From Favolaschia claudopus (Eukaryota > Basidiomycota > Agaricomycetes > Agaricales > Mycenaceae): DNA of 64,000 bases. Positions within the stretch are counted from its first letter, which is position 1. Each line of letters begins with the position of its first letter. The DNA is taken from NCBI GenBank assembly GCA_037176885.1, contig JAWWNJ010000106.1, forward strand, positions 496,001 to 560,000. Direction: 5' to 3'. The notes beneath the pieces are model-generated. The model was given only the letters and a program-made list of their open reading frames with translations, made no database searches and was not told the DNA's origin. Shown in pieces: positions 22,757 through 62,154 of the stretch. The translations under genes were made by a program, and so were the position numbers.

Positions 22757-25700
22757 ATGACCTTCGCCGTCCTCCGTGCCCTCCACACCATCCTCGGCGA
22801 CGCTCTCCACGACATCGAGACTGTATATGCCACCGCCCACGTTCCCGAACCCCCTTCCACACACAGGAAGGCAAATTCTCTTTCCCGAGTCTATGCAAGC
22901 CCACCACCGTCGCCCTCATCTTCGTCCTCGTCCACCTTCGATCCTACGAAATCCAGCCTTTTCAGCCTCGATTTTCCTTCTCTAGATGCGCCATGCGACC
23001 CCAATTCTCCGGCCGAGCAGCTCACCACCCATCCGACTGTCGTCGCAGCTATAAATCGCATCGTCGCTGCTGCCGGGCAAATGGCGGCGACCGTACAGGT
23101 CCCGTTCCTGACTCTGTGCGATGCGGGCATGGGATACCACCTGCCTAGCTGTCTACGCGTCTTTGAAGCTGCTCATGTTGTCGAGGTCCTTCGAGATGGT
23201 CCAGTGCACGTCCGAGAGATTGCGGCGAGCACGGGCGTTGAGCAAGCGAAGCTTGGTATTCGCTTATTGCTCTGGTCGACGCGCTCTCGATGCTGACTTC
23301 TTCTTCACAGCACATATCCTTCGTCTGCTCGCGACGCACCACATTCTGCGCGAGACCGCGCCGGACGTCTTTGCCGTCAACCGCATAAGCTCGCTGCTTG
23401 ACTCGGGCAAACCCTTCCACGAACTCGTCGCAAGGTGAGTTTATGAATTCTCATTTTTTCATGTTTTGCGTGCCCCACCGTATTCTCGTATTTTTCCTTC
23501 CTTCGTGCCTTCCCTTCGTTTCTTGCCCCGCACTCGCTCCCGCGGCCGGTCCCTCGCGCGTCATTATCTCGGTGGCACGCGTCTCTTTCTTGGCTGACAT
23601 CCTTCTATTATTCTCATCCTTCCATCGTATCATTCCTTTTTCGGATCCGCACGTATCGTGCCGCTTCGTTCCTGGAACAGAAATTCTTCAGCTATTCTTC
23701 TAATGAAACATTATATTGTGCTTCCTTTTTCGAATTTTTACAAGTCTTGTCATCGTTTCATAACTGATATTTTCTGTCTTTGTAGTCCACAAAACAAATA
23801 CGCTTCGGCCGGCGATACCGACTCGAGTGCAGTCGCTGCCTTTGTGGGATTGAAGTCAGTTTTCCTCCGCTGTATAATCCTGTGATCAGTTTGCTGTCAG
23901 TCAGTTGTTGGACATCTTGTTCATCTCCCCGTTCACTCGAACGCACGGAGTGCGAACTGGGTCCCCCATTTGCTTGTTTCGTCGTCGCTTTTCATTTCAT
24001 GGTGAACCCATCGTCTAAATTGGATTGGGAAGGCATGTAGCTGCTCTTAGCAGCCCTGGCGATCCTACCCGCCCCGCATCGTCCGCCGATCGGCGGATTC
24101 TACATCTATACATCTCGAATTATCTTCATTCTACTTCTTTTGGTCTTCGGCCCATTCGAATTGCTCATACCCTTCCCAGCTGCGACGAGCTTTACAAATC
24201 AAGCGGCTATCTAACCGAATCGGTCTTCCCGGGCCACGCCCGACTCTACCCCACGACCCTCGCTGCACCTGACCCCGACGCCCAAAGCAACAACAAAACC
24301 AGTGGCAGCGGCAGTGATCCCACGCGCGCGCCTTTTAACTATGCGTTTGGATGTGAAGGTGTGGGGTATTTCGGGTGGTTGGAGGGCGAGGGGTGGACGG
24401 GGGAGATGGGGGTGGCGGAGGGGACGAGGGTTGGTGTCGGCACCGGCCGGGAAGGGCATGGGAAGAAGTCGCAGCAGCAGCAGCCGTCGACGCCTACGGG
24501 TGTGAACCCGAATCAGTTTCGGCTGGAGCGATTTGGTAAGGCTATGGCGGGGACAGGAGGGTGGGAGGCCCCGGGGGCTGTTTTGCAAGGTCAGCGTCCT
24601 TTTTTCTGTTACTCCGGTTTTCCATTGTGAATGCGACCATATAGGTTTCGATTGGGCGTCTCTTCCCCAGGGTAGTGTCATTGTGGATGTCGGCGGTGGG
24701 ATTGGCTCGACAAGCATGCTACTGGCCAGCGCGTACGCGGATGTTGACGCTGACGGTACGTTCATTATCACTTGGTACACTCAACTATTGATTCTGATGG
24801 TGTTGCGCGTTTGGAAAGGCAGCGGCGGTCTCCGATTCGTGATACAAGACAGGCCAGTGGTGGTGGAACTGGGTGAAAAGGTTTTATTTACACTCACCCG
24901 TGATAATGCAAAACCTGAGAACGTCGACAGGCCTGGCGTGCAAAGTGTCCTGAGTTGCTTGACTCGGGTGCGGTGCGATTTCAAGGTGGGTTTCTCCCTT
25001 TATTTCCACCGGCTCTGGTCCGATATTCTTCCACAGTGCATGACTTTTTCACCCCCCAACCAATTACCAACGCTGCGGTCTTCTTCCTGCGCGTTGTACT
25101 CCATGATTGGCCAGATGCTTTCGCCCACCGCATCTTACTACGTTTGCGCGAAGCCGCCACGCCTCAGACTAAACTCGTTCTCGGGGACTTCGTGCTTCCC
25201 CTGGCTTGTGTAGATGATTTTGGCGTTGACGATGGCGGGGGCGCAGAAGGTGGGAAAGAGAGGGGAAAGGAGAGAGAGCCGCAAGTGGAAGGGGCGGAGA
25301 AGATGTTGGCGCCGGCACCATTGCTTGCGAATTTGGGCAAGGCCAGCGCGAATGCTTACTGGATGGATCTTACGGTATACATCTCCCTTTCTTCCGCTGC
25401 AAGCAAGCTGACTGTTTTGTTGGTCCGTAGATGCAAGTGACGTTCAACGGACAAGAACGCACCTTGCGCGAGATCGTCGCTCTCGCGCTGTCGGCGGGCT
25501 GGAAGGTTGTCCGCGTCGCGAAAGCACCTGGATCGCTTTTCGGTCATATCACGGCGGTGCCAGTTTCCGTTCCAGCCCAACGCCGTGCTCGTGCTGGGAG
25601 CGGGTCTGCATTCTTCGACGTCCCAGCAGGCGCAGCTGTTGGCACTGGTGCCGCAGAGCCGGCTGAGAAGGAGATTGTGGAACGCGCGAATAGCCGTTGT

Positions 25701-30603: not shown

Positions 30604-31143
30604 ATGAAGTTCATTCAACATCTCGCTCTAGCAGGATCTCTAGTTTCCTACGTGCTCGCTCAAAGCATCAGGATTGGCTCTCCTGCCAATGGAACTGTAG
30701 TTCAGCCAGGCTCCACCCTCACTGTGCAAATTCAACAGCCGGTTCGTATTCAAGTGTTATGTTTCTTGCTGTTTCAATGTTTGACGTCGACTCCTCCATA
30801 CTAGAGCTCCCTGAGCAACGAAATCGAGGTTGCAGTTGTCATCGGATTCCTGAACTGCCCTTCACCGGATCCCTGCCCGGCGCCTTTGGATCGCATTGGC
30901 ACCGTTCTTTATAACGGACCCTACCACCCGGTTGCCTCACCTCCCGGACTGCCTTATCAGAACATTACCGTCACCATTCCGGACTCCGCGTCGTCCGGAG
31001 ACGCTCAGCTGAATGTCGTTCATTTCGATTTGATCGGGGTGCGTTGTCCGTATTCACAGTTGAGCTCTAGCTCACTTATTGATTTTCAGGCGTTGCCATT
31101 ACCGCGCACGGAAGCTCGTGCTGCCACCCTTGTCGTGAACTGA
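30604..31143 (+). CDS. small secreted protein (family of three in the window)
   Basis: Three exons (30604-30741, 30805-31038, 31090-31143) give 141 residues. Signal peptide of about 19 residues ending VLAQ; the mature part begins IRIGSPANGTVVQPGSTLTV, a pattern like the first strands of an Ig-like or Kre9-type beta fold, then VVIGFLNCPSP with paired Cys, LYNGPYHP and QNITVTIP. Introns match the two paralogues at 61594 and 62672 in number and phase, but the C-terminal exon differs: they end in GP/GQ-F-P-x-x-E-x-x-N-(I/V)-T and this one does not. Function unknown; likely extracellular or cell-wall. Confidence 0.8.
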
Positions 31144-32960: not shown

Positions 32961-34200
32961 CTACTCTAAACCAGAAATCTTCTTTCCTTCGTACAAATCA
33001 AAATCCTTCGGTATGACGGGAATAACAATATCATCCTCAAGCCTGACGCTCGTGTCGTACGAAGTTTGGATCTTGTGGTCTTTACCCCAGTCGCGAAGCT
33101 TGTCGAAATTCCTGCAGGTATGCGCGACGTCGCCTTGGAAAATCGTCTGGTTCTTCTTCGGATCCCATTGCCAGCTTCGCAACTTGTCGATTAGCTCAAT
33201 GGCCACGGTAAGGATGGCGAGGCTTACACGATGACACTCGTATCCCCAGCGCACATCAGCGCTTGTCTGATCCAATCTACGGTGAAGATATCGGTTCATA
33301 CACGACCCCATATATTCTATGGAACACTCACCAATACAATGGTCAAGATGCTCAATCTCGGGCGCATCGTTGTAATATTCTGCCGAAAACGTCAGCCAGG
33401 TATTCAATTCTCATCATCTCAGCTCACCCGTGTGCAGACCCTTTCTGATCATATTCTGAAAGATGCAGAGCATCAGATAGTTTTCATGATGCGGTTGTGC
33501 GTTGAGGAGGACCTACGAGACAGTGGAGATTATGGAAAACGTCCAGTTCAGCTATCTATTGTGTTTTCCGTTATTCATTTAATCAACTGTCTCGGAGGCG
33601 GGACGCACATAGTTCAGCGGATCCCCTGGGATCGGATGCGTCTTATTTGGCAGAAGGACCGCCTGGCTCTTGGGAATTTGGGAGATCCCAACTAACGATT
33701 CCGAGAAATCAGTAGAAAGAAACGCAACAGCAGCGCTGCAAGTCACTGACAGTTATACAGATCGCTCCACGCCTGATCGAGTGCTGGGGAGGGTGGGATG
33801 TGGAAGCGTTTGTCGCCGCCGATAGTGTAGGTCGTGATACCATATTCCACTGCCTCGTGAGCAGGCGCTAGACAGGCACAAGGTCAGGGTGATGGACAAT
33901 GGGAAGGACGTATGCGATCGAGTTACAGTAAACAAGAGCAGGCCAAGAATATCTGGACTTGGCTCCACCAGAACGAAGGATGAGCCAAAAGAGGAGGATT
34001 GTCTCTACCGCCACTACGACGAGGAGGACGTGTCGCGACGGAGACGAAGAACCATGAGAAGTCTGCAGTGGGGTTGGGGATCGTTCCGCCCCCGAAGCTC
34101 CTTCGGCGTCGTCCAGGAAGGGTTTCAGCTGCTGCTCGTCGTCGGAAACTGAGGTCGATACTCCGCGGTAAGGGAACCAAGTTGAGGATGACTTGGCCAT
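32961..34200 (-). CDS. UstYa-like (DUF3328) oxidase, copy A
   Basis: Member of the family that includes ustiloxin UstYa/UstYb, type-II membrane proteins that oxidatively cyclise ribosomal peptides. Eight exons (34200-33927, 33867-33751, 33691-33609, 33555-33517, 33455-33428, 33379-33332, 33276-33228, 33174-32961) give 283 residues. One TM segment (HVLLVVVAVETILLFWLIL) after a 55-residue cytosolic tail. Family landmarks are all present: APAHEAVEYGITTYT, PPSPALDQAWSDLYN, GISQIPKSQA, first motif DVFHNLHCL, second motif EHLDHCIDWIRQALMC, DTSVIVWQW and VAHTCRNFDKLRDWGKDH. Both HxxHC motifs (presumed metal/catalytic) are intact. Close paralogue of the gene at 35285-36508, with the same length and intron pattern. 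Most likely acts on the repeat precursor at 37353-39995. Confidence 0.9.
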
Positions 34201-35284: not shown

Positions 35285-36508
35285 TCAGTCAAAGTCGTTG
35301 TGGAAAATCGGAACGACAATGTCATCCTCGATGTGCACCGTCGGATCGTAGGTCTCGAGTAGCATGCGGTCTTTGGCCCATTGTTGGATCTTGTCGAATT
35401 TGCGGCAGGTATGGGCGACGTTCCCTTTGACGATGCTTGTGTTCAGAGCTCTGTGCCATTGCCAACTTCGGTTTGGGGAGACTGAATGAACGAACAACCA
35501 CATTAGAGTAGAATGCAGGGAACTCACACAATCACACTGGTATCTGAACTGCACATTAGAGATTGACGAATCCAATCTATGCAATGTCCTGGAGAAACCG
35601 CGTTTCAAGGAATATTGAGAAAAATGGAAGCCAAGAGCTTACCGACATGGTCCGTGGCGTTCTTCTGGGAGGGAATATGATTGTTGGTTGTAGAGATTCG
35701 CCAGTCGGGATAATAATCCGGATCCAACGCCATTCGGACTTTGTTCTATTGAAAAGAAGGTCAACAGAGTTTCGAATGACATTGTGTATGGAGCCACCAA
35801 GCAATGAAGATTATGAAATACGTCCAGTTCAGCGATCTATTTACAGGAGGTAAGAGGACATTCTGAGGAAATGCGCTTTAACGAACGTAGTGGCCGTTGT
35901 CTCCGGGAATCGCGTGAGTCTTATTTGGAAGTCGGGCAGCCTCTTCTTTGGTGATTCGCGATATCCCAACTGTATTCGAATATTGAGACACGAGAATTCA
36001 ACTCTGTTCCAACACTTACAGTTATAAAGATTGCTCCATGATTGGTCGAGGGCAGGGGAAGATGGAATTTGGAATGGAGACAAGTCGCCTGGGTGGTTGA
36101 TTGAACTTCCAATTGAAGAGAGTTGTCGAAAACCAGCAAACCTTCGAATCCCACGTTGTATACCCTCACTTCGTGTTCCACCGCGTCGAGTGCCGGAGCT
36201 TGAAGTGTTTTAGTATACTGTAGACAATCAAGTCGACGAGCTCCCATACAATAGAGCACTTCGTGAGACTTGGGATGAATTGTGCATGTCGTGACACGGT
36301 GCGGTGGTTTCATGACCAGCAGTATGATCGCCGCAAGCAAAGCAATAGTTTGAACTGCAAGTATCGCAACCAGAAAAGTGCGCGAGACGTTCGAGAACCT
36401 CGACATCCAGCTGAACCTTGGTGTCGGGCCTAGGGGGAGAGGTTCACCGCGTTCTTCGGCGTCAGCCGGGTCAGCACTCATGAGGGGGCTGTATTCTTCT
36501 TTGGCCAT
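35285..36508 (-). CDS. UstYa-like (DUF3328) oxidase, copy B
   Basis: Second UstYa-family member. Eight exons (36508-36250, 36198-36142, 36088-36020, 35969-35887, 35836-35798, 35745-35643, 35588-35528, 35465-35285) give 283 residues. Short Ser/Pro/Glu-rich N-tail, one TM segment (TFLVAILAVQTIALLAAIIL), then SPALDAVEHEVRVYNVGFEG, SPALDQSWSNLYN, FGISRITKEEAARLPNKTHA, first motif DVFHNLHCL, MALDPDYYPDW, second motif HVGHCIDWIRQSLMC, DTSVIVWQW and VAHTCRKFDKIQQWAKDR. Both HxxHC motifs are complete. It diverges from copy A mainly between the two motifs (a longer exon 6). Two UstY-type proteins per cluster is the rule for ustiloxin and related dikaritins, which supports a joint role with the precursor 0.85 kb upstream. 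Confidence 0.92.
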
Positions 36509-37352
36509 AGTTGGAGTTCGAATGTAGAGGGAAGCAGAAAGCGGCGAAGGCGAAGAATTGCTGGGTCGAAACTTGAAAGCCAAGTGCTAGAAAACAACAG
36601 TCTTTGCCTTTGAGTCGATTTTCGCTCGATAGAACCTTTGATGGTACCTTTCCAAGTTCCCTATGAAGGAAGTATATTGGATTCCGTCAAGATTCGAGTC
36701 GCAATCCGCGTATTGCGTTGCGCCAGCTGTCCATGGTTGACAAGGATGTGAGCCAGGCCTGCAGGTGAGAGTTGGGTGAGAGCCTCGTTCCTCGGCCCGA
36801 GTGTTGACTCTTGTTTGTCGCGTTGTCGCGCCTTGTCATGATATGTACCAACGCACGAGGGCTTTGTATTGACCTTCAAGGACTTGTATCGACCCACCGC
36901 TTGGCATTTGCACCGGCTGGTCCCGTATCTTGCTTTCATTGGACAGCTCTCTGACTTTCAGCTGCCTCGCTTGAGGAATGAATGAATTACTTGGTTCTGG
37001 CTTGATTCTTCCGCCGAGGCTCAGGACTTCCGGACGTCGACATATCTGCCACCGCACGCGAAGTCCATCATTCCAACTTCCTCCCCATTGGGGCATACAA
37101 GTTCGATGCTCTTTCGATTTTATGGCTCCAGTCCGTTTCTGAGTGGGAAAGGTCTGTCAGCTGCAGCTCCAGTTCCGCGTGTAACGAAAGTCTGAGTTGC
37201 GCCGTGCCTGGTTTACTTCCGAAGGGGTAACCCAATGAGTTTCAAGCATGCACGCGCGGAGCTCATAAAAGAGCACAACAACTCAGGAAATAATCCAGAA
37301 CTCTACCTCCGAGTCTACCGATTCTCTCCTAGACCCCCTCTAGACTATCAGG
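36509..37352. other. divergent promoter region of UstYa-like B and the repeat precursor
   Basis: 844 bp between the divergent starts. Nothing coding seen. A TATA-like box lies at 37264-37271. A shared promoter would allow co-regulation of oxidase and substrate. Confidence 0.55.
37264..37271 (+). promoter_or_regulatory. TATA-like box of the repeat precursor
   Basis: CATAAAAG 82 bp before the start codon. Confidence 0.5.
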
Positions 37353-39995
37353 ATGTTCACCTCCAAATTCTCCGCCCTTCTGGCTCTTGCCCTCGTCGCA
37401 GTCGTCACTGCTAGCCCTGTTGCTGTAAGTGCCGGATCTTTCATGCTGAGGTGAGATTACTGAAGCCCAGTTTCCAGGTCAGAGATGCTGGCGTTGATGC
37501 AGGCAACAAAGAGTAAAAACCTCGGATTCAACCTGTAAACCTGATATTTAACTCCTTCATTGTAGTTGGGTGATCAACAAAGCCGAAGCTCGCACAGTTC
37601 CGGATTTGGTGGGTTATATGGATCGTATTTGTGAGACCATAAGCTGACTCTACTATATTCATAGGTGGATCCCAATAACAAGGGGTGGGAGATTGGCTCG
37701 AGAGCGGCTCCCGACTCGGACTTGGTTTGTTATTTTCAAAACGAAAATTACTGCGTGTCACTCAATTCTTTTTACAGGTGGACAGCGACAACACCCACTG
37801 GGTGATTGGCAACAACCGTCGCGAGTCACCCGACTTGGTACGCACAATTTCAAAGACGAAACACGCAGTGAACTAAACCATTTGTTCTTTCATAGGTCGA
37901 CAGCGATAACACGTCCTGGCAAATCGGCCGCTCCCTTCCCACCCCCGTCGCCCGTGCGGCCCCAGAATTGGTATTCACATAAACCTCATTGCCGAACGAA
38001 CTTATATTAATGTTGACCTGTTTCAAAGGTCGACAGCGACAACACTTCGTGGAAGATCGGGCGCTCTCTTCCTACCCCTGTTGCCCGTGCGCCTCCTGCG
38101 GCCGACTTGGTGCGGCGGATTTTACGCCCCACATAACTTGCCGACTAAATGATTGTGCAAAGGTTGACAGCGACAACACTTCGTGGCAAGTCGGGCGTTC
38201 TCTCCCTACTCCCGTAGCCCGAGCGGCCCCCGAATTGGTATTCAACTGACATTGATTCAGACTCAACGAGCATCGCTGATATTCTGTCGAATTTATAGGT
38301 CGACAGCGATAATACCTCATGGAAGATTGGACGCTCTCTTCCAACCCCCGTTGTCGCGCGAGCTGCTCCGGAACTGGTATGTAAACTTTTAAACTATTTG
38401 CTATCAACAACTCATACGCTTGCGCTGGACTCTAGGTTGACAGCGACAACACTTCCTGGAAGATCGGCAGTCGCACTCTGCCCACTCCCATCGTCGCCCG
38501 GGCTGCTCCAGATTTGGTACGCAACGAATGTTAACCTCTAAGAAAAGCGCGTTAGTATCCTTATGTGTTTTCCGGCTTGCAGGTTGACAGCGACAATACC
38601 TCTTGGAAAATTGGCAGTCGCACATTGCCCACTCCCGTTGCCCGCGCTGCCGCGAACAATGTTGACTCAGACAACAAAGAGTCGTACTCTATCTCATACC
38701 GCTGGTCGTGCACATTCTGACAATAGTTCCTTCCACAGCTGGCAGATTGGAAGCAAGCCCGAGGCGGTCGCCCGAGCTGCCGACAGTGTGGATGCGGACA
38801 ACACTAAGTAAGTACTCACTCATCCGCTGAACAACACTCGTATTAAAACCCCGGTCACAGATGGCACATTGGTTCTCCAGCTGTCGAGCGGGCTGTCGAA
38901 GACAGCGTGGACGCCGATAACACCAAGTGATTCCACTAGCTCAAAAGCACCGGGGCAGCACTGACGGTTCATACAGATGGCAGATCGGGAATGCGGCTGA
39001 AGCTGTAAGATTGCTCGGCTTTCAACTTGTTTTTGATCATTAAGTAATTCATGCGTGTTCAGGTGGACGAGAACAATGATACCTGGACCATCAAGGTGGC
39101 GAAGCGAGCTGACCCCACTCCCGCTGTAAGGGAGCTCTCGTTTTGCGTACAATCGAAGCTAACTGTCTCGTAGGCCGTTGACAACAACAACGATAGCTGG
39201 ACCATTAAAGCGGCCGAGAAACGTGCTGGCCCCACTCCTGCTGTATGGAAGCATTCGCTGTCTACCAAAAAAAGCATTTTGAACTCCCTCACAGGCTGTT
39301 GACAATAACAACGATAGCTGGACCATCAAGGCGGCTGAAAAGCGCACAGCCCCCACTCCTGCTGCTGTAAGTTCATTTGCTCCCTGCCCGTTCTGTTGCG
39401 TCTTACTGATTTTTCATTCAGGTCGACGACAACAACGACAGCTGGACGATTAAGGCGGCGAAGCGCGCTGAACCTACCCCGGCTGTAAGCAATGATTCCT
39501 GCCAAGAGAGTCCAACTGATCTTCTCCACAGGCTGTGGACAACAACAACGATAGTTGGACCATAAAGGCGGCAGAGAAGCGCGCCGCCCCTACTCCTGAT
39601 CTCGTGAGTCTCGAAATGTTCACAGGCAAATATCTTTCTATAAGATTCAGGTTGACGGCAACAATGATTCTTGGACCATCAAGCGCAAGCGGGCCGAGGC
39701 TACTGCTGCTTTGGTATGCTTCTGGCTACTCCGAATATTGTTTCTCATCGGAATCGTTCTAGGTCGACCCCAACAACGATTCGTGGACCATCCACCGCAA
39801 GCGTGCGGCTGCTACCGCTGCTTTGGTATACCTCTAGCGCATTTGCCTCGGCGTTTCTCATGAGGAATTTTCCAGGTCGATCCCAACAACGACACTTGGA
39901 CCATCAAAGGCAAGCGTGCTGTCCCTACCCCTGCTGTGAGTCTCGTTCATCCCACTGATCTCATTTCATCGTGCTAATTCGATATTCTCTAGTAA
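37353..39995 (+). CDS. secreted multi-repeat peptide precursor (putative dikaritin-like RiPP)
   Basis: 23 exons join in frame to about 482 residues: signal peptide (MFTSKFSALLALALVAVVTA, then SPVA) and 20 tandem repeats. Exons: 37353-37424, 37478-37512, 37566-37608, 37665-37724, 37778-37837, 37896-37970, 38029-38109, 38163-38237, 38299-38376, 38436-38516, 38583-38680, 38739-38807, 38861-38926, 38977-39004, 39063-39125, 39174-39242, 39295-39366, 39422-39484, 39532-39603, 39651-39713, 39763-39825, 39876-39935, 39993-39995 (stop only). Every repeat has V-D-x-x-N-x-x-W-x-(I/V). Repeats 3-9 carry VDSDNT(H/S)W(Q/K/V)(I/V)G, mostly followed by (R/SR)-(S/T)LPTP(V/I)..ARAA; repeats 13-20 read VD.NN(D)(S/T)WTI(K/H) followed by a dibasic KR and a Pro/Thr spacer. 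KR sites suit Kex2 cleavage, as in UstA/PhomA-type precursors and other Kex2-processed repeat proteins. The two UstYa-like genes next door are the main support for a RiPP role; the product is unknown. Confidence 0.88.
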
Positions 39996-40343: not shown

Positions 40344-41741
40344 ATGTCGACCCAGCCCACGAACGAATCCTACCTCGTCGTCGGAGGCGGGACGGCCACA
40401 GGCGAGGCTATCGCCTCTCAACTTTTGTATCGGGGGGAACGCCGAGTCTCAATCTTCGATGGTGTTCCCCTCGCCCCCGAGCAGACTAAGCGATTTGGGA
40501 GTGGTCTCAACGCAGTATTCGTCGGAAACATACTGAAACTGGAGAGTGCGGTGGATGCTGTCAAATCAGTATGTCCTCAGCCCTGTCTGCCTTTCTCAAT
40601 AATGATCCGTCGTAGACTGCAGCGACGTGTATAATTCATGTCGGGGCGATTACGACCCCCGAAGCCTCAGCTGCCGTGTACCCCACCCAACGCCCGCCAA
40701 ACTTGACTCCCGAACAAGGGGGAAAACAACTTGCGGACCATATGGCGTTCCACAAACAGGTAAACATGGAAGGCACTCGGAACTTGCTCTCCGCAGCCTT
40801 AGAAGCCAGTACCGTCAATCAGCTGGTGTATATTGGCAGTGCGGACATCGTTTTCGACGGAAAAGAGCGTCCCATGCTGCGTGAGGTCGATGCGCCGTAC
40901 CCTGACAACTGTTTGGAGCAGTTCGAGCCGCAGCAGCATGCCGAGCGTATGGTCCTCAGTTTCAACGGGGTGAATGACTTGCGCACTGCGGTTATCCGTC
41001 CCGCAATGCCTTTCGGGTATGTCTACTGTTTTTTTTCGCTCCTCTTCTCGATCATCTGCGCTGAGAGCTGACTTTCTCACCTCTATGGCAGACCAAGTGT
41101 GGGCAGCGCCGCAATACTTCGGAAATTTCAATCCGCTCCACAATTTGCAGGAATTCAGCTCGGTGATAATACGAACCTCGCTGACAGGACATACGTCGCC
41201 AACACCGCACATGCGGCCATTCTCGCCGCGGACCGCCTCGCCCTAGCGCATCCGCAACATGAAGTTGTTGCCGGTCATGCGTTCTTTATCACCAACGACG
41301 ACCCGCGTCCGTTCTGGGACTTCTACCGCGCGTTGTGGGTTGCGATTGGGGGAGCGGAGCCGAAGAAGGTCGTCGCGGACCAGACATTCGTGTCCGTGAT
41401 GGCGGGCGTGAAGGATTTCGTGGCCAAGGTCAAGAGAGAGAAGTCGAATGCGCGGATGAAGATCAAGTGTATGTCTGCAACTAGGACGTATGATATCAGT
41501 CTTGCGAAGGAGGCTTTGGGATATAAGCCTATTGTGTCGTATGATGAGGGGATTCGGCAGGTCGCTGAGGTATGCCTGCGTTGCTATTTTCAAAAAAATT
41601 GTGGTCATCGCTGATAAATATTCAACGTAGTGGTGGCTCGAGCAGCAGCTCAGATTGTGCAAAGAGCAAGGCTCGAATGTACCACCGCCATACAGTTACA
41701 ATGAAGCGGTGTTTTTTGCGGAAAAAAGCCCGTTCTTCTGA
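40344..41741 (+). CDS. SDR-type 3-beta-HSD/isomerase-like protein
   Basis: Extended short-chain dehydrogenase related to 3-beta-hydroxysteroid dehydrogenase/isomerase and sterol C4-decarboxylase (Erg26-like). Four exons (40344-40568, 40616-41016, 41092-41569, 41631-41741) give 404 residues. Rossmann motif SYLVVGGGTATGEAIASQLL, CIIHVGAITTPEASA, NMEGTRNLLSAA, QLVYIGSADIVFDG, RTAVIRPAMPFG and GDNTNLADRTYVANTAHA are all family landmarks. Odd: where the catalytic YxxxK is expected, the protein reads CLEQFEPQQHAERMV, so Tyr and Lys appear to be lost. It may bind NAD(P) without normal SDR catalysis. It starts 348 bp from the repeat precursor on the same strand, so cluster membership is possible but unproven. 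Confidence 0.82.
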
Positions 41742-43060
41742 GAGTTGCGCATATCGTTGTTGAGTTCATTTATGTATACGGGCTCACACTTGGAGCGGAT
41801 GAAATCACTGTATATTGTATTTTAAATTAGGCGAAATGGTATGACTGGAGCTTAGAAACATCCGAAACGCGGCCATAGTGAACTATCGGACACAAGAAAA
41901 CGAAATGTCAATACGGGAACAGGTCTGCTATCCGTCACAGGCAAGGATCAAACATTTTGTGGGGTTTCATTTAACAGTCTCGAACAGCAAATACCTGACT
42001 GCTCCTCGACGTCTAAATCTGATCGCTCAGTGTTCCCAAATCTTTGGCAATGTGGGCTCCTTCTGCTACGATCTCAATGCAGGTCCTCGGTGCGCACGGC
42101 TTTTGCACACCGATTGCAAAAAAAGCACGCGCGTCCTCCACTGAGGAAAAATGGAGGCGGAGAATTTTGAGGTTCATGCAGGGCTCGACAAGATTTGGGA
42201 GAGCCAGAGCATCTGAGTCATAAGATATCAGCATTCCACGATTCAAACTTTACCGTAGTGAAGATAGTGAAGGCCCACCGAGCGGATACTGGGCTTCACT
42301 AGCTTCACTACTTAAGCTTCACTAGTCACTCCGGAGTGAAGCTAGTGAAGCATCAACTTCCCATCATGGCGTGTTGAAGTTGCAATACGAAATTCAACCG
42401 TGGGAAGCTAATCGGGCCGGCACTCCGGTGGGTATGTCACGAAGAGCTTGGCGAGTCCAATATTTTTTATGACTGGTCAAAATTGGAGAGGTACTGTAGT
42501 CTCCGAGCGCGTCGACCGAGCGCGCTTTGGTCGCCATTCTTTGTGCTGCACAGTCCACACCATTTTCACGGGACGCTTCGTCGGGAGGTGAAGCGCACTC
42601 TGTCGACTCCCATCGTAGGTTGTCCTTGTTCATTAACGTTCATTCTTACCACTCGTCTCAGTATTCTCTTCTAGTAATTAGCAGTTAGACTTCTGTGGCG
42701 ATACAACGAACGGGATCGCAAGCTGAAAAGTTTTCAACGAATTATCATTGTTACCCTAAAGTCATACTGTCGTTTGGTCTGTATGAATGTTATCTTTTAG
42801 TATGCCTTGAATAAGTGTCTCCAGTAGTGGCGAGTCTAACTAATCCATATTAACTCGAGTCAACGCGGTAAAGATTTTGAAAGAATTACAGTACTTACTT
42901 CACGACTTTCAACAGCAGTTGAACCGTGAGAAAACGGCAGTCGGACCGATCATGGCTCTTTCCGGTGTTGGCTTTGTATGGTGAAGGCTTCCCATTGACA
43001 TCAGTCACACAGTCACACTTCGTAACCGAAACCTCATCCTTCCCAAAACCCTCGTCTACC
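41742..43060. other. intergenic with decayed fragments
   Basis: A minus-strand piece at 42013-42246 (LPNLVEPCMNLKILRLHF) resembles the leucine-rich body of F-box proteins and may be a relic. A hairpin-forming TTCACTAG repeat lies at about 42292-42350, and CAACCGTG-type motifs at 42393-42406 and 42919-42932. No intact gene seen. Confidence 0.45.
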
Positions 43061-46798: not shown

Positions 46799-48878
46799 TC
46801 ATAATAACATGAAATCGTGGCTGCTTAGAACAGCGCTTGTTCGGGGAAAACGGCAGGTGCCCTGTGCATTCCACTCGTCACTCCCGACTCCGTTCCTGAC
46901 AATGAACAGCCCTTTGGGGTCATATTTCTCCTTGATTGACTTGAGCTTGGGGTAATTATGTCCAAAGAACGTCTCCTCCGGGTGCTTCTCGACCTGAGCT
47001 GCCTCGTTGCTGTAGGCGGCCCCTGGGCCGTCATCGCCGGTCATTTCCTGGATGGCAGCGAGCTGTTTATCCGTCCATAGGGTCGCGATGTGGTTCTGCT
47101 CATCGATGGTCGCCCCGTCTGTCCAAGGATTCTCCATGAGGAGCTGGAGGGGGCTTCAGTGAATGCAACTGGCAAAGAGAAAACGAGAACTACGTGAACA
47201 AGTGCCGTCCTCCAGCCGGGATGGACAGCGGAAGAGATGTTGGGGTTGGCAGCGACTTGACCTCCCGCAACGAGATGCCCAAGGATGCTAATGGGAGAGA
47301 ATTAGTGAAATTCATGGCAGTGAGAAACCTGTATTCACTTCAAAGTACCAAGGTCCAAAAGTGTTTTGTACGCGGGGCCAATTTTCGAAACACGATGCTG
47401 GTACGTCTCCTTCGGAATAAGACGCGAGCCGGTGATGAGATCGATTCCAGAGATATCGTCCGCGAAAAAGACGAGGTCGTTTGTATCGGAGGTCACTTGC
47501 ACATTTGATGTCAGCGTGACACCAGAGATCGCCAGCGCCTTCCTTTGAAAAGGCGCAAGGAGCGCCGTGGTCTGCGGGGTTGTTTGGTTGATGGCAATAG
47601 TATAGAGAGTGAGTATGGGGATCGCGGTCAGGTTCGCCTTCTGGAGGAAGAAGTATTGGGAAGAGCGACTCGCTTCGTAGTCGAATATGTGGGAAGCGTG
47701 AAGCTGCATGAGATCGGCTGCGACCTGGTGTGAGGTGGTTCCGTATGTTTGAACAAAAATGGTTGAGTTGAATGTTTCGTAGGTGCGGAAGGTGGCGGAC
47801 ACAATGACGCCCCAGCTTCCGGCACCTCCGCCACGAATAGCCCAGAAGACTATGATTAGGAAATGTCAGTAGACTCCAAGAGGCTTTTGCTTTAAGATGA
47901 ACGCACGGTCAGAGTTGCTTTGCCTGTTGACCGTGAGGAGATGGCCGCTTGCGTCAACGACCTGGAATTCTATCGAGCGTGTTGACATAGTGGGATTGGA
48001 AGGTATCAATCAAGTATCAATCGCGCGACGTACGGATAGCATTATCTGCGGCTAATCCAAACTTGCGCGACAAGATGCTGTGACCTCCTCCCTGGACGTA
48101 CCCACCTGCCACAGCAACAGTGGAAGCGCTACCTACGACGAGGACTTTGCCAGCCGCTTTCGCCAACTGATAGAGGTCTCCGGAGCCTAGACCGGGACCG
48201 ACGGTCACCGCTGATCCCACGTCTATCGAGCCACACTCGAAGTTGTTGACAAAAGTCGCGTTTCTGAAATTCTTCATGCGAATCATGAGCGAGTCCGCAG
48301 CTGTAGAGCGTCCGAGGAAGTCGTGGCCAGAGGATTTGACAACCAGACGGATGCCATGAGCCGCAGCGAACTTGACGGCAGCCTAGAAGAGATTCTGATC
48401 TAGTCTCAATGGTATGCGGGGCGGCGGACCTGGACATCGGCCACTGTTTGGGCCTCGACGGAGTAGAGAGGGACGTTCGATTTCGCGCAGTTGGCGGTAT
48501 TGTTCCGTAAGCAAACCACCCCGACACCGTCATATGCCTAGCGAAAGCTTAGCAATTCTACATTCAGAAATTTGAACGCAGGAAACCCACTTGTTCGTAG
48601 TTGTACGAGTCCATAGCGCCGGGGATGTTTGAAAGCCGAAATCTAGCGCTACTCCATTCTGCATCGGTACAACCACCACGTTGTTGGCACCAAAAGGCCG
48701 AAGGCACAACGGAAACGAGTCGGCCATTGACAGTCGAGTTCAAGGAAGACCACTGAGACTTGCTCACACTTGCGGCGGCGGGCTTGCGGCAAGCACCGGC
48801 CCCCGCCACTGGGCTGAGGAGAAGTGCAGCGAAAAGAAGGGAGGCAACGTGCAGGGCGTTGAATGGGTCGACCCCCAT
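46799..48878 (-). CDS. secreted BBE-type FAD-linked oxidase
   Basis: Berberine-bridge-enzyme-like flavoprotein, usually oxidising carbohydrates or secondary metabolites outside the cell and releasing H2O2. Signal peptide around LLFAALLLSPVAGAGA; PCMH-type FAD domain with VKSSGHDFLGRS (His for covalent FAD), GSASTVAVAGGYVQGGGHSI and VFWAIRGGGAGSWGVIVSAT; C-terminal BBE motif FFGHNYPKLKSIKEKYDPKG followed by LFIVRNGVGSDEW. Several introns; the junction near 47.15-47.19 kb could not be fixed. The C-terminus extends about 20 residues past the usual end. The Cys for the second flavin bond was not seen. Confidence 0.85.
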
Positions 48879-58566: not shown

Positions 58567-60834
58567 ATGGCCAACAAACGCTCCTCCGGCCTCGATTTTT
58601 CTGACGGCAATCCCACTCTCAATGCATATACCACCGATGCCCCAGCAACGGCCTTCGACCAGCGCAATAAAGCTGAACGCGCCCGGATACAAGGCCTCAT
58701 GTATACCACCAAGCCCCAAGGCAAACTTCGCCACGACCCTACCCGCCCCAAGAAATTAAAGGAGCGATTCAGCCTGTGGCTGATCAACGAGGGACGGCAG
58801 AGAATCTTCTTCGCCACTTTCATCCTTCTCCATCTTCTCGTTGCGGCCCTTGGCCTCGTCCACTACGGTCTAAAGGACAACTTGGTCACCGCGCGACAAA
58901 CATATGGCGTTACTTTCAGTGTGTCCATTGTCCGTTCATCCATGATCAGCCAGCTGAATCTGTATCCATAGCTATAGCACGCGCAGCAGCCCTCGTTCTT
59001 CATGTCGACGTCATCTTCATCCTCCTCCCTGTATGCAGAAACCTCGTATCCATCCTTCGACGCACGCCCCTAGGAGATGTCATTCCTTTCGACAAAGGCA
59101 TCAAACTCCACATGGCCACCGGCTGGGCCATCGTCGTCGGTTCCATCGTACACACACTCGCCCACATCGTCAACCTGGTTCGGCTTACTATGGCCGACGA
59201 GTCTGCTCGTACCACAGGACAACGCATTGCATTCTTCATCAAAGCGAACTTCGTCATCGGCCCCCTCATCACTGGGTGGCTCATGTGGATCTGCCTGGGT
59301 GTCATGGCCTATTTCGCTGTCGCAAAACGGAGGAACGCCAAGAACGGTGGATACGAGCGATTTTGGTACACGCACCATCTCTTCATCCCTTTCTTCATCC
59401 TGTGGCAGCTGCATGGCATGTTCTGTATGATTCAGCCCGACCGTCCGCCCTATTGCTCGTGGAACAGCATTGGTGTCTTCTGGGTGCGTCGCGATAGATC
59501 TTGTAATTATCTTTCGTTGATCGTTTGATGCAGCGGTATTGGATCGTCGGCGGTGTCATCTGGATCATCGAGCGCATCCTACGCGAAGTGCGTTCCAGAC
59601 ACATCACGTATATTTCGAAAGTCATTCAGCACCCGTCCGACATTATGGAGCTGCAGATCAAGAAGGAGAAAATACAAGGCCTGAGGGCTGGGCAGTATAT
59701 CTTTCTTAACTGCCCCGAGCTGTCTTTTTGGCAGTGGCACGCATTCACCATTACTTCGTGCGTCCGGCCTCCTTTTGCAATGGCGTGCTGCCCGACTAAC
59801 TTCCGTATGAAAGCGCGCCGGAAGAGGATTACATATCCGTTCACATTCGCATTGTTGGCGACTTCACGCAAGCCTTGGCGCGCGCTGTCGGGTGCGACTT
59901 CGAGAACGTTCGTGCCTCGCAGACGCCTGTCACGGAAGGAAAGGTGGTCACCACTGCCACCAATCCGAAAATCAATCGTGTTTTGCCCCGCGTCATGATC
60001 GATGGTCCCTTTGGTAGTGCATCTGAAGATGTCTTCAATTATGAGACGATCTTCTTGGTCGGAGCTGGGATCGGGGTTACGCCGTTTGCTTCGTGAGTCG
60101 TTTTCCCCGCTTTCGAAATCCGATTTCGCTTGCTCACAAAGGAGCGAAGGATTCTCAAGTCCATCTGGTACCGGATGAACAATCTGAGTCACGGCAAACG
60201 GACCAGGCTTTCGAAGGCGGGTCTCTTTTTATTCCAAAATGATCACTTCTCGAATGAATCTCGCGGCGAATAGGTCTATTTTACGTGGGTCATTCGTGAC
60301 TTCAACCAGGCCGAGTGGTTCCATTCTCTTCTCCATGCGCTAGAGGAGCAAGACTCGCAAAACAAGATCGAGATCAACATATACCTGACAGGCGGGATAC
60401 AGGAAGACGATATCAACAACATTGTTGTGCGTATCCCATTGATGAACAGCTATCATGAACGGATTCATCTGACGGTCTCGCAGGTGCAAGACGTTGGCGC
60501 AGAGAAAGACGCTGTCACGATGCTTCGCGCGCCAACTCATTATGGCCGGCCAAATTGGGATCGCACTTTTACGTCGCTTGGACAGAAACATTCAGAGTCG
60601 GACATTGGGGTGGTGAGTGCTCCTACATCGATACATCGTCTTCGTCCTGGTGCCTCCGTAATTCATCGCCCGTCGGCTCCAGTTCTATTGCGGCCCGCAG
60701 CAGCTGGCATCCACTCTTCGTTATATGTCCAACAAGCATTCGGACGCTCGAGGAGCACGGTTCTTCTTCGGGAAGGGTTCGTGTCATTGTTCTGCGCTTT
60801 TTCACGGCTGATTGCTTTCGCAGAGAATTTCTAA
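58567..60834 (+). CDS. noxB: NADPH oxidase NoxB
   Basis: Second fungal superoxide-generating oxidase, told from NoxA by its N-terminal extension of about 60 residues ([20 protein letters not shown] before the first TM). Nine exons (58567-58918, 58972-59483, 59534-59757, 59814-60092, 60150-60216, 60274-60426, 60484-60612, 60683-60776, 60824-60834) give 606 residues. Seen: [20 protein letters not shown] and [13 protein letters not shown] with haem histidines; FAD site [19 protein letters not shown] (Ala where Pro is usual); [30 protein letters not shown]; classic C-terminal FFFGKENF. The intron after the TRLSK codons appears to be GC-AG (GCGGGT donor). NoxB acts in hyphal and fruit-body development in other fungi. 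Confidence 0.94.
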
Positions 60835-61593: not shown

Positions 61594-62154
61594 ATGAAAT
61601 TTGCTCAGCTCTTTGCTCTCAGCACCATACTGGTCACTACTGGATATGCGCAGCAGGCCTCCATCGGGGTTCCTTCAGCCGGGGAAGCTGTACAAGCCGG
61701 CTCGAACATTACTGTCGAGATTGATCGACCGGTGCGTTTCGCCCTCATTTCACGCACAACATCCATTAATATGCTTTGCCCCTTGTCTAGAACAGTCTCA
61801 CCCCATCCACCGAAGTAGGTATCGGAATAGGGTTCCTATCCTGTGTCGACTTCAACTCGAGTGCTTGCCCGTCCCCGTCCGAAGTTCTGGGGTCCATTTT
61901 GTACAGCGGGCCTTTCAACCCGCAATACACCAACGTCTCGAGTAGCAAGCCTCCGCACCAGAACTTTACTGTGACGATTCCGGCTACGGCGAAGAGTGGG
62001 CCAGCCCAGATTGCTGTCACGCATTCGAGTTTGGTCGGGGTATGTCGAGTTCTTTTATTCTTGTGAATCCTTCGTCTGATTTATGGTGGCGGCTGGCCAG
62101 GCGGGACCGTTCCCGTTTAATGAGATCTTCAATATTACGGTGAACGTGGCCTGA
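61594..62154 (+). CDS. small secreted protein (paralogue 2)
   Basis: Three exons (61594-61731, 61791-62039, 62101-62154) give 146 residues. Signal peptide ending GYAQ; mature start ASIGVPSAGEAVQAGSNITV, then VGIGIGFLSC with a second Cys (SSACPSPSE), LGSILYSGPFNPQ, HQNFTVTIP and a C-terminal GPFPFNEIFNITVNVA. Same three-exon layout as 30604-31143 and 62672-63233; the nearest relative is the latter, next door in tandem. No enzymatic motif; perhaps a cell-wall or surface protein. Confidence 0.82.

Follow-up and report, generated by a model that had tools for sequence, protein, structure and literature searches.

The locus described here, from the wood-rotting mushroom Favolaschia claudopus, raises the question of whether a long series of short, similar exons forms a genuine gene and, if so, what kind of peptide that gene would give rise to. 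It lies in a stretch of 64,000 nucleotides (the window), corresponding to positions 496001-560000 of contig C106 in an assembly of 264,566,041 bases. An initial annotation had read the exons as a secreted RiPP precursor cut by Kex2, and we evaluated that reading from the gene itself, its copies in the genome, its neighbours and its relatives.

Structure and conservation of the precursor gene

The gene begins with an ATG at 37353 and ends with a TAA at 39993-39995, and its 23 exons join in frame into a spliced sequence of 1449 nt with a single stop, at the end. The leader and 20 repeats proposed in the initial annotation were recovered with exact coordinates, the 3' end being less certain: when the window copy is read through intron 22, a stop also follows after 13 additional residues, so that both this intron and the TAA-only exon 23 are uncertain. 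The parts of the gene are the following:

37353..39995, plus strand: precursor gene, 23 exons, 482 amino acids, 20 repeats VDxxNxxWx[IV]
37353..37424, plus strand: exon 1, hydrophobic N-terminal leader, probably a signal peptide (judged by eye and by the similar leaders of homologues P0136, P0137 and P0140)
37478..37608, plus strand: exons 2 and 3, repeat 1, split before Trp by a phase-2 intron
37665..37837, plus strand: exons 4 and 5, repeats 2 and 3
37896..38680, plus strand: exons 6-11, repeats 4-9 (DSDNTSW type, single-Arg sites only) and the first part of repeat 10
38739..39004, plus strand: exons 12-14, remainder of repeat 10 and repeats 11 and 12, with an intron before Trp in each
39063..39935, plus strand: exons 15-22, repeats 13-20 (N/D-rich, WTI(K/H), a Lys-Arg site in each)
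39993..39995, plus strand: exon 23, TAA alone, optional

The idea of one repeat per exon is correct for 16 of the 20 repeats; in the others (1, 10, 11 and 12), a phase-2 intron interrupts the codon preceding Trp, and the remaining 18 introns are all in phase 0. Within the repeats, V1, D2, N5 and W8 are identical in 20 of 20, bearing out the earlier claim of an invariant Asn and Trp, and I10 is found in 19, the exception having Val. Gly occupies position 11 in 11 repeats and Lys in 7, giving W-x-I-G cores in 10/20 and W-T-I-K in 7/20. After residue 24, the protein has 20 Trp and no Tyr, Phe, Cys or Met, as counted on the C8 copy; counts of Tyr, Cys and Trp over the same region of the window copy had the same outcome. 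No Pfam or NCBIfam family matched the precursor above its cut-off.

Potential cleavage sites are unevenly distributed. Dibasic Kex2 sites (Lys-Arg or Arg-Arg) are present in nine repeats (3 and 13-20), ten have single Arg only (1, 2 and 4-11), and repeat 12 is without any basic cut site. The Kex2 cutting assumed at the outset is thus plausible for the nine dibasic repeats and not for the other 11. Linkers following KR are rich in A/P dipeptides, e.g., KR-A-x-P-T-P-A. An N-x-S/T sequon occurs in 14 of the 20 repeats; we rejected N-glycosylation as a full account of why the Asn is kept, since the 6 repeats that have no sequon retain it as well.

The locus is present three times in the assembly, on contigs C106, C7 (3,309,884 bases) and C8. 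The surroundings of the gene are near-collinear among the copies: alignment of the window to 60-kb stretches of C7 and C8 gave 23 blocks, 14 at 88-98% identity and 9 at 66-83%, some of the latter being repeated stretches or UstYa paralogues that match each other. The copies are most simply haplotypes or duplicates of one region; the available text on the published F. claudopus assembly gives a size of 265 Mbp and reports that 86.8% of BUSCO genes are duplicated (PMC10905254). Other precursor loci were not found in the genome: of 54 matches, 51 belong to these three copies, and the remainder have E values of at least 1.4.

Comparison of the three copies argues for a selected, spliced coding gene, which is the only comfortable reading of these sequences. 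Pairwise divergence is 3.6-4.2% in exons and 11.5-13.5% in introns, i.e., about three times higher in the introns, and each pair of copies differs by 37-49 substitutions at third codon positions versus 9-13 at first and second positions together. With dN of 0.011-0.013 and dS of 0.12-0.16, dN/dS is 0.067-0.098, and the reading frames are open in all copies. All 65 introns of the three copies are GT-AG (64) or GC-AG (1), with lengths in all three mod-3 classes, and the splice sites are kept in the exon-by-exon alignment except for those of intron 11, which is deleted in C7. There, exons 11 and 12 are fused in frame (72 nt net), removing one repeat and one intron and leaving 19 repeats; the C8 copy has one extra codon (3 nt). 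It is the kept splice sites, open frames, excess of third-position changes and low dN/dS that make the case for a real gene under selection. At the level of individual residues, amino acid changes between copies affect 1 of 95 core sites (Val/Ile) and 16 of 364 others, with 25 codons with gaps left out, a difference that runs in the expected direction, towards fewer changes in the cores, and is not significant (Fisher p = 0.22).

UstYa genes and other neighbours

The initial annotation had named adjacent DUF3328 (UstYa) genes beforehand as a point to be checked, and two such genes, A and B, are indeed located next to the precursor in the window. Both lie upstream of it and are intact, with two HxxHC motifs each:

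32961..34200, minus strand: UstYa gene B, 8 exons, motifs HNLHC and HLDHC (first and last codons placed by hand from the flanking frames)
35285..36508, minus strand: UstYa gene A, 8 exons, 283 amino acids, motifs HNLHC and HVGHC (splice model by projection)
36508-36250, 36198-36142, 36088-36020, 35969-35887, 35836-35798, 35745-35643, 35588-35528 and 35465-35285, minus strand: exons of UstYa gene A
36509..37352, no strand: divergent region of 844 bp separating the start codon of UstYa gene A from that of the precursor
40344..41614, plus strand: 3-beta-HSD/epimerase-like gene (approximate limits, from open frames)

The C7 allele of gene A, spliced in the same way, is identical letter for letter to annotated protein P0016; our C7 model of a further UstYa gene, D, is likewise identical to its annotated protein (P0017), and for gene B a visual comparison shows agreement with P0090, its annotated C7 allele. 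These annotated alleles match PF11807 with 175 bits (P0016; E = 2.5e-51), 168 bits (P0090; E = 3e-49) and 168 bits (P0017), the curated cut-off being 25 for all three. In C7 and C8, gene D is situated on the downstream side of the precursor; the window copy, compared over positions 41885-42764, does not have it. UstYa genes are therefore found beside the precursor in all three copies. In the window and in C8 the precursor is followed by the 3-beta-HSD-like gene, to which the 60 kb of C7 under comparison contain no match; the locus can therefore probably do without it. An AlphaFold2 model of P0016 (mean pLDDT 79.9) gave no match in the PDB with E <= 0.001 (best E 0.85), and a sequence search of the PDB gave one match, with E 0.43.

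A six-frame scan of the genome yielded at least 53 exon-level UstYa matches in 264.6 Mb, an undercount, given that of the eight genes we know from the three loci it picked up only two, D on C7 and D on C8; the true number of UstYa genes may be several-fold higher. On these figures UstYa genes are thinly spread in the genome, and even with several times more of them it would seem unlikely that two or three stand beside one precursor by chance. The same scan placed further groups of 3 or 4 UstYa matches within about 5-14 kb on contigs C82, C13, C185 and C70.

The Pfam scans, which covered 18-63 kb of the window and can miss short exons, gave no tyrosinase match, and the genome search found none on C106, the nearest being approximately 795 kb away on C7 and approximately 900 kb away on C8. 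A berberine-bridge-type FAD-dependent oxidase (BBE, FAD_binding_4) at about 46888-48385 on the minus strand of the window is a possible further tailoring enzyme. On the plus strand, there is a weak O-methyltransferase match at about 25042-25200 (PF00891, E 0.0018, below cut-off) and a ferric reductase at about 59000-60620 (PF01794, PF08022 and PF08030). Nis1 is a secreted effector family, and Nis1-like matches below the curated cut-off occur once on each side of the locus, at about 30814-31041 and 61791-62045 (plus strand; E 4e-4 and 7e-4).

Homologues in Mycena and history of the repeat array

Two protein searches, covering lengths of about 265-843 and 102-324 amino acids and each scoring the 7997 candidates that shared most words, returned 24 family members: 20 from Mycena (15 from M. 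olivaceomarginata, 3 from M. leptocephala and 1 each from M. vulgaris and M. albidolilacea) and 4 from metagenome-type sources. The repeat is conserved in Mycena; D-x-x-N-x-x-W-x-I is mostly retained there, and the linkers vary. Within the same length ranges, we found no annotated Favolaschia precursor protein. Since the C7 UstYa proteins are in the database, the precursor itself seems to be unannotated, and C7 illustrates the contrast well, with UstYa neighbours that have models and a precursor for which no model was found. Protein-based surveys may undercount such genes, because 22 (or 21) short introns must be removed before the precursor can be read.

One relative, P0136 of M. leptocephala, resembles the precursor in its leader and in the style of its repeats (E = 7e-46 when compared singly with the first 220 residues). 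It is on a 570,983-base contig, as is a UstYa protein of M. leptocephala, P0046, that shares 79% identity with gene A over 70% of it, and we take the two to share that contig. Among the 120 of 200 UstYa matches listed, P0136 is the only one of four leader-bearing homologues from named species with a UstYa gene on its contig; the other three (P0001, P0004 and P0140), as well as the 16 remaining named matches, have none among these matches, as judged by eye. Over the whole family, the 24 proteins are on 24 contigs, at least one of which is shared with a UstYa gene by the same count. Linkage of precursor and UstYa outside F. claudopus is therefore suggestive, with one of four good cases. The RiPP reading of the initial annotation gains strongly from the adjacent DUF3328 genes and from the repeat in Mycena, and is weakened by this low proportion of linked homologues.

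Several relatives are informative about gene structure. Judging from the protein letters, P0137 has the appearance of a transcript: its frame of 243 amino acids, encoding 8 cores, runs uninterrupted on a contig of 1191 bases. P0142, from a 1019-base contig, has repeats in different frames with intron-like sequence between them and would represent genomic DNA with one exon per repeat. The C-terminal parts of P0136 and P0137 share VNVDEDCCSAW, with paired Cys after the repeats, which is absent in the Favolaschia precursor. Many of the 16 remaining named matches look like chimeric gene models without a leader: many M. olivaceomarginata models (among P0002, P0003, P0006-P0015, P0138, P0139 and P0141) fuse repeats to unrelated parts, e.g., kinase fragments, and P0005 of M. 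albidolilacea is also such a model. These chimeric models, spread over many contigs, look like a dispersed, decayed and perhaps transposon-carried family of copies.

As to how the array grew, exons 6-10 are 72-81% alike among themselves and exons 15-22 are 59-84% alike, with about half identical between the groups, a pattern compatible with exon units having been duplicated in tandem in two rounds. The introns bear no trace of this: their mean similarity is 0.483 versus 0.474 for shuffled sequences, and the best pair reaches 0.61, the same as the best shuffled pair, implying either that the duplications are old or that the introns came later. The sole recent change in copy number, in C7, is a deletion between coding repeats that took the intron with it. 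That copy number changes by exon duplication, as originally suggested, is accordingly plausible but unproven, with two blocks of similar exons in favour and both the dissimilar introns and the C7 fusion against. The exon-sized units and shared intron positions would be consistent with growth by old tandem exon duplication.

Proposed processing, alternatives and known peptide families

Taken together, we consider it probable, at about two chances in three, that the gene encodes a dikaritin-like secreted multicore RiPP precursor whose cores are oxidised by the neighbouring UstYa proteins, with Trp in place of Tyr. The leader would take the precursor into the secretory pathway, where kexin-type proteases and dipeptidyl peptidases would release as many as 20 short peptides from it by cutting at Lys-Arg and single-Arg sites, each core bearing the fixed D-x-x-N-x-x-W-x-I. 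To judge by their position and intact double HxxHC motifs, UstYa A and B, together with D in the C7 and C8 copies, would then oxidise the cores. With no Tyr or Phe available, UstYa oxidation of an aromatic residue would need Trp, and Trp and the Ile at +2 would be the likeliest sites of modification if the Tyr and Ile of ustiloxin (YAIG, YVIG) and phomopsin (YVIP) are taken as a guide. A more specific version, in which UstYa links Trp rather than Tyr to the Ile two residues on or to the invariant Asn, and in which precursors built of one-repeat exons form a family through the Mycenaceae that is under-annotated as short exons defeat gene finders, would make this a mushroom counterpart of the dikaritins; we put it forward tentatively, as possible but somewhat doubtful.

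The main competitor is a plain Kex2-processed repeat protein that releases linear peptides, resembling alpha-pheromone with its Ste13-type XA/XP dipeptides, with the UstYa neighbours serving some other purpose. The A/P dipeptides after KR in the linkers fit such a protein, and the available text of Vogt reports linear, minimally modified KEP peptides from Coprinopsis cinerea, Lentinula edodes, Pleurotus ostreatus and P. eryngii, some of them Trp-ended and with Ste13 motifs (PMC9769878). In addition, DUF3328 genes are reported near only 103 of 1680 basidiomycete KEPs (PMC7329392, in part), and because of these two observations we keep the linear-peptide reading as a serious minority view, unlikely as it is. 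It sits poorly, however, with UstYa genes flanking the precursor in 3 of 3 copies and with an M. leptocephala homologue that shares a contig with a close relative of gene A. KEPs annotated as mating factors or fungal pheromones are described as being without DUF3328 neighbours, with three exceptions (PMC7329392, in part), but since 17 of 76 KEPs resembling putative basidiomycete pheromones do have DUF3328 according to the sections available, these data do not cleanly separate the two readings.

A secreted repeat protein that remains uncut, as a wall, surface or N-glycosylated component, would make sense of the sequons in 14 repeats and of the 11 repeats without a dibasic site; yet the Asn is equally invariant in the 6 sequon-free repeats, no Pfam or NCBIfam family exceeds its cut-off, and the UstYa neighbourhood would be unaccounted for, so that we regard this as improbable. 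A chance or decaying array that has no protein product is hardly credible. The lack of an annotated Favolaschia protein among our matches and the chimeric, degenerate look of many M. olivaceomarginata matches would agree with it, but a dN/dS of about 0.07-0.10, the threefold higher divergence of introns and the open frames in three copies do not, and we rejected both a pseudogene and a chance array on the selection and frame conservation seen over these copies.

The dikaritin-like reading can be placed among known systems. Dikaritin cores contain Tyr in ustiloxin, phomopsin and asperipin, and victorin uses Phe. In the sources available in part, dikaritins come from secreted multicore precursors that are cut by Kex2 and oxidised by DUF3328 proteins, the ustiloxin and phomopsin cores being cyclised between Tyr and Ile (PMC7329392, PMC9233826 and PMC9769878), and DUF3328 genes are located alongside these precursors, usually occupying the very next position (PMC7329392). 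The Favolaschia locus resembles the ascomycete dikaritins (ustiloxin/UstA, phomopsin/PhomA and asperipin-2a) in its secreted precursor with repeated cores, its adjacent UstYa genes with two HxxHC motifs and its aromatic-x-Ile core (here W-x-I-G in half of the repeats). It differs in having Trp for Tyr, incomplete Kex2 sites, no tyrosinase found nearby, a basidiomycete host and 22 introns with mostly one repeat per exon, and in being known from genes alone. Tyrosinase was part of the original five-gene definition of dikaritins, and later definitions, in the text available, do not require it (PMC12048977). We would refrain from classing the locus among the true dikaritins before a modified product has been observed.

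Other families share single features. Plant burpitides, some of which have Trp cross-links, are ribosomal peptides made by a different enzyme family. Their cyclases are BURP-domain copper enzymes that, like the enzymes proposed here, cross-link side chains (PMC12186524, in part). The epichloecyclins (GigA) also have a secreted multicore precursor and an aromatic-Ile cross-link, but are Tyr-based, with an N-terminal Ile, and ascomycete (PMC9233826, in part). Closest in host are the basidiomycete KEPs (Le Marquer 2019; Umemura 2020; Vogt 2022), which have a leader, repeats and basic cleavage sites; the available parts of these papers describe a 6.1% subset with DUF3328 neighbours and a W-containing type, P-3 (including Galerina, Psilocybe and Coprinellus), with DUF3328 neighbours in some members, and contain no match to the present repeat type or exon-per-repeat architecture. 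Umemura 2020, in the same partial text, leaves open whether KEP cyclisation hardly occurs in Basidiomycota, and the 16 UstYa-like genes of Pleurotus are credited with a probable role in making dikaritins (PMC8893723, in part). In the open-licence PMC literature, we found no mushroom precursor-enzyme pair with a described DUF3328 product.

What appears to be new, as far as gene sequences can tell, is a mushroom gene set of precursor and enzymes that resembles those of the dikaritins, with Trp for Tyr and an exon-per-repeat build. The locus offers a concrete precursor-enzyme pair to express, in which Trp is the sole aromatic residue of the core, and it suggests an uncharacterised class of peptide products in mushrooms.
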